A stretch of DNA of 64,000 nucleotides from Longimicrobium sp. GTDB lineage: Bacteria > Gemmatimonadota > Gemmatimonadetes > Longimicrobiales > Longimicrobiaceae. Positions 17,386 through 20,863 of this stretch are shown here, in pieces. How positions within the stretch are numbered: position 1 is the first letter of the stretch; the number at the start of each line of letters is the position of its first letter. A model generated the notes under the pieces. The model was given only the letters and a program-made list of their open reading frames with translations, was not told the origin of the DNA and did no database searches. The translations under genes and the position numbers were made by a program. The stretch spans positions 1-64,000 of the forward strand of contig DASUYB010000105.1 in NCBI GenBank assembly GCA_036377595.1, given 5' to 3'.

Positions 17386-18186
17386 GTGGACTTTCCCGTC
17401 CTGATCCGCATCGGCTCGCTCGCGATCCCGCCGCACCAGGTGCTGGAGGGGGTGGGATGCTTCCTCGCGTTCCGCCTCTACCTCGCGCTCCGCCGGCGCG
17501 GCGGCGATCCGCTGCGGAGCGAGCGGCGGCTGGTGCTGCTGGCGGCGGCCACGGTGGGCGCGGCGCTCGGCTCCAAGCTGCTGGCGCTGGCCGACAACCC
17601 CGCGCCGGTGCTCGCCCACCCCGACCTGCGCGTGCTGATGGCGGGGAAGACCATCGTCGGGGGGCTGCTGGGTGGGCTCGTGGCCGTGGAGCTGGCGAAG
17701 AAGTGGGTGGGGGAGACGACGCCCACGGGCGACCTGTACGTTTTCCCGCTGATCGTGGGGATCGGGATCGGGCGGATCGGGTGCTTCCTGACGGGGCTGG
17801 CGGACGACACCTACGGCATCGCCACGCGCCTGCCGTGGGGGATCGACTTCGGCGACGGCATCGCCCGCCATCCCACGCAGCTGTACGAGATCGCCTTCCT
17901 TGTCTTTCTCGCCGCCGCGCTGGCGTGGCGCGCGCGACGGCCGTATCCCCGCGGCGACCTGTTCAAGCTCTTCATGGCCGCCTACCTGGCCTGGCGGCTG
18001 GCGGTGGATTTCATCAAGCCGCAGCACGTCACCCTGCTGGGGATGACGCCCATCCAGCTCGCCTGTCTCGCCGGGCTCGTCTGGTACGCGCCGCACCTGC
18101 CGCGGCTGCTCGGCTTCGCGTCTCCCTCCCCATCTCCATCCCCCACCAACCCCGACGCAGCGGGACCCGCATGGCAGACAAGGTAA
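17386..18186 (+). CDS. Divergent Lgt-like membrane protein (prolipoprotein diacylglyceryl transferase family)
   Basis: A 266-residue integral membrane protein with about seven helices. True Lgt moves diacylglycerol from phosphatidylglycerol to prolipoproteins. Family blocks are visible: GKTIVGGLLGGL, GIGIGRIGCF around residues 126-134 and RHPTQLYE. However, the Lgt signature GRxGNFxNxExxG reads GRIGCFLTGLADDTYG here, so the expected Asn at 133 is Cys and other signature residues are lost. It is therefore probably a paralogue with another lipid substrate. The GTG start follows a repeat-filled gap, and the gene overlaps the radical SAM gene by 16 bases. Confidence 0.8.
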   Translation: MDFPVLIRIGSLAIPPHQVLEGVGCFLAFRLYLALRRRGGDPLRSERRLVLLAAATVGAALGSKLLALADNPAPVLAHPDLRVLMAGKTIVGGLLGGLVAVELAKKWVGETTPTGDLYVFPLIVGIGIGRIGCFLTGLADDTYGIATRLPWGIDFGDGIARHPTQLYEIAFLVFLAAALAWRARRPYPRGDLFKLFMAAYLAWRLAVDFIKPQHVTLLGMTPIQLACLAGLVWYAPHLPRLLGFASPSPSPSPTNPDAAGPAWQTR

Positions 18187-19625
18187 GGCCGTACCTGTAC
18201 TACGACGTGGCGCTCGCCCTCTGCTCGCGCTGCCTGCGCAAGGTGGAGGGGAAAATCCTGTTCGCCGAGGGAAAGGTGATCCTGGAGAAGCGCTGCCCCG
18301 AGCACGGCCGCGAGCGCGTCCTCGTCGCCGACGACGTTGAGTACTACAAACGCTGCCGCGAGGTCTTCATCAAGCCGCCCGAGCAGCCCAACCACAACCA
18401 GACGCCCGTCCGCTACGGCTGCCCGTACGACTGCGGGCTGTGCCCCGACCACGAGCAGCACTCCTGCCTGGCGCTGATCGAGGTCACCGACGCGTGCAAC
18501 CTGAAGTGCCCGGTGTGCTACGCCGAGAGCGGGCCGCACCGCCCCGACTTCCGCCCGCTGGAGTTGATCGAGCGGATGATGGACGCGCTGGTGGCCAGCG
18601 AGACATCCCCCGACGTGGTGCAGATCTCCGGTGGCGAGCCGACGCTGCATCCCCACTTCTTCGAGATCCTCGAGGCGGCGCGGGCGCGGCCCATCAAGCA
18701 CGTGATGGTAAACACCAACGGGCTGCGCATCGCCGAGGACCGCGAGTTCGTGCGGCGGATGGCGGAGCACCGGCAGAACTTCGAGATCTACCTGCAGTTC
18801 GACTCGTTCAAGCGCGACGCGCTGATGGAGCTGCGCGGCGCCGACCTGCGCCGCATCCGCCGGCAGGCGCTGGAGCACCTGAACGAGTTCGACATCTCCA
18901 CCACCCTCGTCGTCACGCTGAAGAAGGGGGTGAACGACGACGAGGTGGGCGAGATCATCCGCCATGCGATCGAGCAGCCGTGCGTGCGCGGCGTGACCTT
19001 CCAGCCGGTGCAGGCGGCGGGGCGGCTGGAGGAGTTCGACCCCGCGACCGACCGGCTGACGCTGACCGAGGTGCGGCGGGCGATCTACGAGCAGTCGGGC
19101 GTGTTCCGCGAGGAGGACGTGGTGCCCGTCCCCTGCCACCCCGACTGCCTGGCGATGGCGTACGCGCTGAAGCTGGGCGGCTGCGTGACGCCGCTGACGG
19201 GGATGATCGATCCGCGGATCCTGATCGAGGGCGGGCGCAACACCATCGTGTTCGAGCAGGACGAGGGGCTGCGCACGGCGCTGTTCCGCGCGTTCAGCAC
19301 CAACCACTCGCCCGAGAGCGGCGCCCAGAGCCTGCGCGAGCTGCTCTGCTGCCTGCCGATGGTGGCGGTGCCCGAGGGATTCGGCTACGCGAACGTGTTC
19401 CGCGTGCTGGTGGTGCAGTTCATGGACGCGTACTCGATGGACATCCGCTCGGTGAAGAAGAGCTGCATCCACATCGTGCACCCCGACGGGCGGCTGATCC
19501 CCTTCGACACCTACAACCTGTTCTACCGCGACGGCCGCGAGCAGCACTGGAAGCCGCGGCTGGCCGACCCGTGGGCCGAGCGCGGCCGCCTGCCGCTGCT
19601 GCAGACGCACGGCGGCATCGCGTGA
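18171..19625 (+). CDS. Radical SAM protein of the MJ0619 / tetraether lipid synthase (Tes) type
   Basis: A 484-residue radical SAM enzyme. The cluster motif is CNLKCPVC (Cys109, 113, 116) and ISGGEPTLHP binds SAM. The N-terminus has a rubredoxin-like CSRC (18, 21) with RCPEHG (42). CPYDCGLCPDHEQHSC (84, 88, 91, 99) suggests an additional Fe-S site. This layout is that of the MJ0619 class, in which archaeal Tes joins two lipid tails between methyl carbons. The gene starts inside the Lgt-like gene and ends on the next start codon (GTGA). Substrate here is unproven; a membrane-lipid tail is a reasonable guess because of the neighbour. Confidence 0.85.
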   Translation: MADKVRPYLYYDVALALCSRCLRKVEGKILFAEGKVILEKRCPEHGRERVLVADDVEYYKRCREVFIKPPEQPNHNQTPVRYGCPYDCGLCPDHEQHSCLALIEVTDACNLKCPVCYAESGPHRPDFRPLELIERMMDALVASETSPDVVQISGGEPTLHPHFFEILEAARARPIKHVMVNTNGLRIAEDREFVRRMAEHRQNFEIYLQFDSFKRDALMELRGADLRRIRRQALEHLNEFDISTTLVVTLKKGVNDDEVGEIIRHAIEQPCVRGVTFQPVQAAGRLEEFDPATDRLTLTEVRRAIYEQSGVFREEDVVPVPCHPDCLAMAYALKLGGCVTPLTGMIDPRILIEGGRNTIVFEQDEGLRTALFRAFSTNHSPESGAQSLRELLCCLPMVAVPEGFGYANVFRVLVVQFMDAYSMDIRSVKKSCIHIVHPDGRLIPFDTYNLFYRDGREQHWKPRLADPWAERGRLPLLQTHGGIA

Positions 19626-20068
19626 GCGACGAGCGCCCCGCCGCCGAGCGGCCCGATCCCATCCGAGAGACGCCCGCGCCGGAGCGCGCCGAGATCTCCG
19701 CGTTCGGCGCCGGTCGCCCGGCGTCGCGGGGCGGCGGAGAGCGTCCCGCGCGCCGCGAGCCGCCCAGCCTTACGTGGCAGGGCGTCCGCGCCGCGCTGGC
19801 GATGTTCGTGGCCTCCGGCTTCGTGTCGGTCGGCACGCTCGTGTGGGCGCAGCTCTCCGACGCCAGCTCGGACCAGGCGCTCAGCGCGTTCGTCACCGTC
19901 GGCGGGGCGATGGCCGTCGTGGCGGTGCTCGCCGCGCCGGCGGTGTCGCTCTGGCTGCCGCGCGGCGCGCGCGGGCCGTTCTGGGCGATGGGGATCATCA
20001 TGGCGTTCCTGGGCTTCATCCTGTGGGGCGGCACCTGCGGCCTCGCTACCATCGCCGCGGGCGGGTGA
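19622..20068 (+). CDS. Small three-helix membrane protein A of paralogous trio
   Basis: A 148-residue protein starting with GTG that overlaps the radical SAM stop by four bases. The first 50 residues are hydrophilic, rich in Pro, Arg and Glu. Three membrane helices follow (about 55-78, 88-112, 119-145). The last helix region is ARGPFWAMGII...GFILWGGTCGL, which is shared with the next two genes. I recognise no family. Translational coupling with the radical SAM gene suggests it acts with it, for example as a membrane scaffold or substrate handler. Confidence 0.75.
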   Translation: MSDERPAAERPDPIRETPAPERAEISAFGAGRPASRGGGERPARREPPSLTWQGVRAALAMFVASGFVSVGTLVWAQLSDASSDQALSAFVTVGGAMAVVAVLAAPAVSLWLPRGARGPFWAMGIIMAFLGFILWGGTCGLATIAAGG

Positions 20069-20424
20069 TGACGAACGACGACCTGCCGCCGCGCGAGCGC
20101 CCCGCGCCCGAGCACCTTCCCGCGCCCGAGACGGCGGGGCGCACGCCGTTCCTGCAGGGCGTGATCTCCGCGCTGGCGATCCTCGCGGGGATCGTGGTGC
20201 TGGAGGGGATCACGCTGCTGGGGAACTGGCTGACCGGCGGGCGGCAGGCCGCGCTCTTCATCATCCTGGGCCTGCTGATCGCCGGCGGGGGGATCGCGGT
20301 GCTGGTGCTGGCGGGGAGCCGGCTCCCGCGCGCGGCCCGCATCCCGTTCTGGGCCATCGGCGTGATCTGCGTGGCCATCGCGTTCATCCTGTGGGGCGTC
20401 ACCTGCGGCCTGATGGTCGGGTGA
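20068..20424 (+). CDS. Small three-helix membrane protein B of paralogous trio
   Basis: A 118-residue protein whose ATG overlaps the preceding stop (TGATG). A short Pro-rich N-terminus (about 30 residues) is followed by three helices. The C-terminal helix carries ARIPFWAIGVI...AFILWGVTCGL, matching proteins A and C. No enzyme motif is visible. The single conserved Cys sits near the end of the last helix. Confidence 0.75.
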   Translation: MTNDDLPPRERPAPEHLPAPETAGRTPFLQGVISALAILAGIVVLEGITLLGNWLTGGRQAALFIILGLLIAGGGIAVLVLAGSRLPRAARIPFWAIGVICVAIAFILWGVTCGLMVG

Positions 20425-20458
20425 GCCCGGTCCGATCCACCCGCAACCGCAACGGACC

Positions 20459-20863
20459 ATGCCAGAGTATCCGGAAGACGAACTGCCGCCGCGGCCCGAG
20501 CTGGGCAACATCCCCCCGGGCGCGCCGGGCGGCGCGGGCGGCGGCGGCCGCGAGTGGCCGGCCTACGAGCCGCAGCAGCCCGACCCCACGCGGCTGGGCG
20601 TGCGCGCGGCGTTCATGATCTTCGGCGTGGTGGTAGTCATCCACCTGCTGCTGCTGGCGTTCGTGAAGCTCTCCGGCAACTCCGAGAACGCCTGGCTCTT
20701 CCTTCCCGAGGGGCTGCTGGTGATCGCCGGCGCGCTGGGCGCGGCGATCTTCGTCACCCTCAAGCTGCCGCCCCCGGCGCGCGGACCGTTCTGGGCCGCG
20801 GGCGTGGCGTGCATGTTCCTCTCCTTCATCATCTGGGGCGCCACCTGCGCCGTCGCGCTGTAG
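20459..20863 (+). CDS. Small three-helix membrane protein C of paralogous trio
   Basis: A 134-residue protein, 34 bases after protein B. The first 45 residues are Pro-, Gly- and Glu-rich (GAPGGAGGGGRE), then three hydrophobic helices follow. The last contains ARGPFWAAGVA...SFIIWGATCAV, the same signature as A and B. The three copies diverge except for this helix and its preceding Arg-Pro turn, so that part is probably functional. Confidence 0.75.
   Translation: MPEYPEDELPPRPELGNIPPGAPGGAGGGGREWPAYEPQQPDPTRLGVRAAFMIFGVVVVIHLLLLAFVKLSGNSENAWLFLPEGLLVIAGALGAAIFVTLKLPPPARGPFWAAGVACMFLSFIIWGATCAVAL

Follow-up and report, generated by a model that had tools for sequence, protein, structure and literature searches.

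An Lgt-like protein and a radical SAM enzyme are encoded together with small cysteine-bearing membrane proteins across bacterial phyla

The five open reading frames at positions 17386–20863 of a 64,000-nucleotide stretch (the window) of the 7.2 Mb genome of Longimicrobium sp. (Gemmatimonadota; contig DASUYB010000105.1, forward strand) form an operon encoding an Lgt-like membrane transferase, a radical S-adenosylmethionine (rSAM) enzyme and three small membrane proteins. Its closest described counterparts are the tetraether synthase Tes, the prolipoprotein transferase Lgt and the MYXO-CTERM sorting system. Homologues of Tes serve to infer natural makers of tetraether lipids; to our knowledge, thousands of its bacterial relatives have no known role. 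According to the structural report on Tes, its C-terminal cluster is situated beside the lipid pocket, with a cluster sulfur carrying the substrate in an intermediate; archaeal homologues fully conserve Met439 and Tyr459, and the M439A variant is still functional (PMC9433317). In Escherichia coli Lgt, function is lost when H103, Y26 or R143 is altered, and a role of H103 in binding the acceptor peptide has been proposed (PMC4728403). For MYXO-CTERM proteins, in which a cysteine precedes a helix followed by an Arg-rich cytoplasmic tail and MrtX cleaves, lipidation of the transmembrane-linked cysteine by Lgt or an Lgt-like enzyme has been proposed (PMC11980579). A literature search largely outside the subscription journals found no paper joining Lgt and a radical SAM enzyme in one system, as the first-pass annotation of this DNA had supposed. 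Each component belongs to a known superfamily; the system as a whole fits no described one that we could find, and the function discussed below is putative.

The Lgt-like gene (17386..18186, 266 aa, GTG start) overlaps the rSAM gene (18171..19625, 484 aa) by 16 bases, the rSAM gene overlaps that of small membrane protein 1 (TM1, 19622..20068) by 4, TM1 overlaps TM2 (20068..20424) by 1, and TM3 (20459..20863) follows after 34 bases, all exactly as first annotated. A collection of 84,980 species was searched by rSAM motifs, so that loci were chosen on rSAM sequence only, and gave at least 80 loci with about 59–81% identity to the window enzyme. Among the matches listed, Bacillota (40), Acidobacteriota (14), Pseudomonadota (7), Cyanobacteriota (7) and Planctomycetota (6) were represented, plus others, and in 77 of 80 an Lgt-like gene lay nearby on the same strand. 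It is found upstream of the rSAM gene, with most pairs overlapping or at most 60 bases apart. With the pair recurring so regularly in about ten phyla, chance does not account for the arrangement. This coupling, and the small proteins found together with both enzymes across phyla, bear out the earlier view of the five genes as one functional unit; that the module spans the bacteria was a point absent from that account. The three loci without a nearby Lgt-like gene are one at a contig end (L086) and two in cyanobacteria (L116 and L125) whose genomes have a second LGT-family gene located elsewhere.

Within the host family the rSAM gene is present in only 3 of 21 genomes, and the small proteins occur in exactly those three and nowhere else within these genomes. 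In the host phylum the rSAM gene is present in 12 of the 14 genomes that hold the Lgt-like gene, versus 25 of 395 genomes overall. The module was found in 8 of 244 genomes of Cyanobacteriota and, at the similarity level of the locus scan, in 2 of 299 of Bacillota. The module is conserved but patchily distributed across bacteria, and this patchiness suggests its transfer between them as one unit. One rSAM relative without an adjacent Lgt-like gene (L034, genome G123) overlaps by 4 bases with the gene of a membrane-anchored, putatively DUF547-like protein. An apparent fusion of the Lgt-like and rSAM genes in L118 was rejected, as its open frame crosses a stretch of Ns.

The small proteins TM1 (148 aa, three predicted helices, terminal ILWGGTCG), TM2 (118 aa, terminal ILWGVTCG) and TM3 (134 aa, terminal IIWGATCA) are paralogues, 37–38% identical over the aligned part, with a common C-terminal W-G-x-T-C motif. 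The AlphaFold model of TM3 has three helices (43–72, 75–102 and 105–133), the motif cysteine being close to where the third one ends; a fold search with the small-protein model gave no match. Profile searches gave no specific NCBIfam or Pfam family model for these proteins, TM3 scoring 21.1 bits against the MARVEL domain PF01284, below the gathering score of 32.8, and no other member of the set matching it. Across the loci the operons hold one to three small membrane proteins, encoded directly after the rSAM gene, between the enzymes or just before the Lgt-like gene. They are diverse: the number of helices ranges from one to three, a zinc-ribbon-like head is present in some, and most have no family match. 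Their sequence outside the cysteine region varies widely, with copies often in tandem. What they share most clearly is a cysteine close to the point where a helix ends on the outer side (NAACFG, VAACFG, GLCG, TICG, WGVTCG), located in helix 1 of the one-helix and two-helix forms and in helix 3 of the three-helix forms. In three cyanobacteria the small protein is lipoprotein-like, with one helix and the cysteine just before a proline-rich tail. In a Paenibacillus-type variant (L104, L105, L108, L117, L119 and L149) a B-box-like zinc ribbon is joined to a single helix ending TICGAL or AICG, and this protein lies upstream of the Lgt-like gene, replacing the three-helix form.

Of 84 loci, 71 had a small transmembrane protein with the cysteine in the operon, versus 10 of 150 control windows (p 4e-35, a value that overstates independence as the loci are related), so the small proteins do behave as the conserved membrane partners first proposed. 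When small transmembrane proteins were counted by direct coupling, without selection for a cysteine, 47 of 56 carry one versus 71 of 203 controls (35%). Among eight cyanobacterial and Bacillota loci unused in forming the idea a cysteine protein was found in seven, three of them with the lipoprotein-like form. The invariance of the cysteine in alignment A4 is not used as evidence, since most of its sequences were picked by motif; the count by direct coupling and that for the divergent rSAM group below are free of such selection. Around the cysteine helix Lys and Arg have a mean count of 2.5 on the N-side against 0.45 on the C-side, an excess by which the helix should run from inside to outside, with its C-end facing out and the cysteine in its outer half. 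With a crude helix count the cysteine fell in an odd helix in 73 of 86 cases; by eye, most of the others are three-helix proteins whose first helix was missed. Such parity is weak evidence alone, and the few control hits were also mostly odd. The shared cysteine, with a position and predicted topology like those of the Lgt acceptor, had no place in the first-pass annotation.

The Lgt-like protein belongs by profile to the family of E. coli Lgt (5AZB), matching PF01790 with E 6e-25 and 88.4 bits (gathering score 24.9), but reaches only 40.2 bits against the Lgt equivalog model TIGR00544 (cut-off 118.9); profile searches gave no specific NCBIfam or Pfam model for this paralogue. Its R130, Y200 and R204 correspond to R143, Y235 and R239 of the E. 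coli enzyme and are invariant in 44 aligned relatives. Unlike Lgt, which is also not paired with a radical SAM enzyme, it has V91 at the position of H103, H17 at Y26 and C133 at N146, and in the same relatives the first of these positions is V in at least 90% while the other two are invariantly H and C. With the counterparts of R143 and R239 kept and H103, Y26 and N146 lost, it seems that donor binding has been retained and the acceptor side remodelled. A classical Lgt is rejected on the missed TIGR00544 cut-off and the absence of H103 (HGGL) and Y26; the H103 loss had previously escaped mention. The host carries two other LGT-family genes, so that the operon copy is a specialised paralogue. 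The second of them (G000:C139:23350-24123) has WYGG instead of HGG, plus GRGGCFLVGDDYG, and may be non-classical too.

The rSAM enzyme consists of an HMPTM zinc-ribbon and a radical SAM domain (Radical_SAM match in Pfam, E 2e-25), and its best sequence match in the PDB is the Tes crystal structure 7TOL (1e-72). It shares with Tes (GDGT-MAS; MJ0619, NF045702) and bacterial Mss a rubredoxin-like site (C18/C21/C42/H45), an N-terminal cluster (C84/C88/C91), the CX3CX2C core (C109/C113/C116) and a C-terminal domain. The Tes-class cysteine layout noted earlier holds for the first three of these, and part of the C-terminal set is absent: C455, C470, Met439 and Tyr459 of Tes are replaced by S431, D446, V415 and I435. 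In the alignment, the position of C455 is S, T or A and that of C470 is D or E in all 38 clade members. From their conservation, these two residues are putative cluster ligands of Tes. The clade has cysteines of its own, C322 and C432 in 38 of 38 members and C393-C394 in 37 of 38, a set that might hold a different cluster. The AlphaFold model (pLDDT 83, residues just before C393 poorly predicted) has 7TOL as its best PDB fold match over the whole length (TM-score 0.75), followed by the peptide-modifying rSAM enzymes SkfB and SuiB over the common core only.

In a maximum-likelihood tree of 79 sequences the window enzyme falls in its own clade with support of 100/100, apart from MJ0619 Tes, which joins other bacterial proteins of presumed Mss type (100/99); the tree contains MJ0619 as a fragment only, the Mss-type group is presumed without a named Mss, and long branches make the deep order uncertain. 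The first-pass annotation had suggested such a tree; a grouping with Tes was not obtained. The enzyme is rejected as Tes on this separate clade, on the loss of the four C-terminal residues and on its score against NF045702 (285 bits, cut-off 450). Its best NCBIfam score, over the full length, is with the TrsS model NF045646, and TrsS is rejected as well at 327 bits against a cut-off of 490; unlike TrsS, the window gene has no in-frame TGA. No specific NCBIfam or Pfam model for this clade was found in the profile searches.

The explanation we favour, tentatively and as not quite an even bet, is that the operon is a dedicated module modifying cysteine miniprotein substrates with an unusual lipid or thioether group. 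The small membrane proteins would be the substrates, as is to be expected from their variability and tandem duplication, each presenting a single conserved cysteine within the outer half of its in-to-out helix, where Lgt meets the lipobox cysteine of a prolipoprotein and in the same orientation. The Lgt-like enzyme would put a lipid group on this cysteine, using phosphatidylglycerol or a derivative. The cytoplasmic rSAM enzyme would use radical chemistry to alter the lipid tail or the uninserted miniprotein, for example by forming a C-C or C-S bond, and the outcome would be a small proteolipid whose lipid anchor is non-standard. What the sequences show is the coupling of the genes across phyla, the conserved cysteine with its predicted topology, and particular residues lost and gained in both enzymes; the substrate role, the chemistry and the order of steps are what we infer. 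The MYXO-CTERM proteins resemble this scheme in their helix-tied conserved cysteine; in the window proteins, unlike these, the cysteine is in the distal half of the helix with K/R on the N-side, and the operon has no protease gene.

Several points weigh against the favoured explanation. A few loci (L107, L109, L114, L118 and L123) have no clear cysteine protein, and there is no proper lipobox, the −1 residue being mostly A and also L, I or T, with hydrophobic residues after the cysteine. Since substitutions of H103 and Y26 inactivate E. coli Lgt (PMC4728403), the loss of these residues and of N146 suggests that the chemistry may not be diacylglyceryl transfer. With the rSAM enzyme expected in the cytoplasm and the cysteine facing outward, the two enzymes cannot act on the same atom in place; the best answer to this compartment problem would be an initial rSAM step, carried out either on the lipid donor or on the protein before its insertion. 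A more specific version, in which an H103-less Lgt-type transferase and a Tes-type enzyme build a radical-made lipid anchor, possibly with a tail joined across the membrane, on dedicated cysteine miniproteins throughout bacteria as a new kind of protein lipidation, is doubtful and on the unlikely side.

The loss of the essential acceptor-side residue H103 also gives rise to the best rival explanation, that the small proteins are required subunits whose cysteine, catalytic or redox-active, completes the active site of the Lgt-like enzyme in place of that residue. A small protein is almost always encoded close by, in a divergent group of loci directly after the Lgt-like gene, as a subunit would be; two or three divergent tandem copies with strong variation in length and sequence are unusual for a catalytic subunit, and we consider this role unlikely. 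Direct modification of the miniprotein by the rSAM enzyme before insertion, for example by a thioether as in RiPPs (ribosomally synthesized and post-translationally modified peptides), with the Lgt-like protein for membrane handling, would fit the substrate-like variation of the small proteins and the fold matches to SkfB and SuiB. The Pfam and NCBIfam searches gave no SPASM domain and the cysteine finishes in the outer leaflet, both of which make this explanation improbable and the weakest of those considered.

The first-pass annotation had proposed that the operon may build or modify membrane-spanning or otherwise unusual lipids. In this explanation the rSAM enzyme would link lipid tails or change them, phosphatidylglycerol would be handled by the Lgt-like enzyme, and the small proteins would act as membrane anchors or scaffolds. 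The whole-length fold match to Tes, its nearest solved structure, and the binding of phosphatidylglycerol by Lgt speak for it, as does bacterial Mss, which is thought to act on phosphatidylglycerol-type lipids (PMC13274423). From the two enzyme families a lipid link is indeed likely. A Tes-like or membrane-spanning role is not supported, given the separation of the rSAM clade from Tes and presumed Mss, the score of 285 versus 450 bits and the loss of the C455, C470, Met439 and Tyr459 counterparts from a domain that in Tes lies next to the bound lipid (PMC9433317). A conserved outer-face cysteine in tandem copies would moreover be needless for a mere scaffold. We also know of no membrane-spanning lipid production in hosts such as Paenibacillus and Nostoc. 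Lipid synthesis is thus quite unlikely, less so than the RiPP-like route and more so than the subunit role, and bulk tetraether synthesis appears less likely than miniprotein modification.

A deeply divergent group of rSAM relatives has lost the N-terminal cluster instead; a small transmembrane protein with the cysteine is present in 5 of 7 loci, encoded directly after the Lgt-like gene. Directly downstream of the rSAM gene of this group lies another conserved two-helix miniprotein (L019, L020, L021, L023, L026 and L153) with the pattern DPVRFC..TTVALLAW..PP....GLWAYARA...GL..SRC; the relative in L153 has no Lgt-like gene nearby. A Bacillota rSAM relative read through a TGA (L150) adjoins an Lgt-like gene and a three-helix protein ending VVLCF. 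The Bacillota contig G592:C39 has three rSAM genes of the Tes/TrsS superfamily, at 241796, 277034 and 278443, one of which is read through an in-frame TGA and is accompanied by an Lgt-like gene and a small transmembrane protein with the cysteine.

In the window the operon has an O-antigen-ligase-like gene 484 bases upstream and a convergent DUF5995 gene downstream, neither of which looks part of the unit. A 19-base element, TCCGCGAAGGCGGACTTCG, occurs with at most two mismatches in six copies on both strands (13571, 16954, 17233, 23802, 25010 and 52793; expected 0), two of them just upstream of the operon. A defence system was rejected, as weak viperin matches were found to the rSAM core only and none for the other proteins, and the neighbours are ordinary-looking.

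To count this large rSAM clade as tetraether synthase would be misleading, since its genes mostly occur together with those of an Lgt-like protein and a cysteine miniprotein and part of the C-terminal residue set of Tes is absent from it. If the small proteins are indeed the substrates, the module would represent a protein-lipid modification of a new type whose targets are encoded next to the enzymes, and would be directly testable in the culturable Brevibacillus, Paenibacillus and Nostoc.

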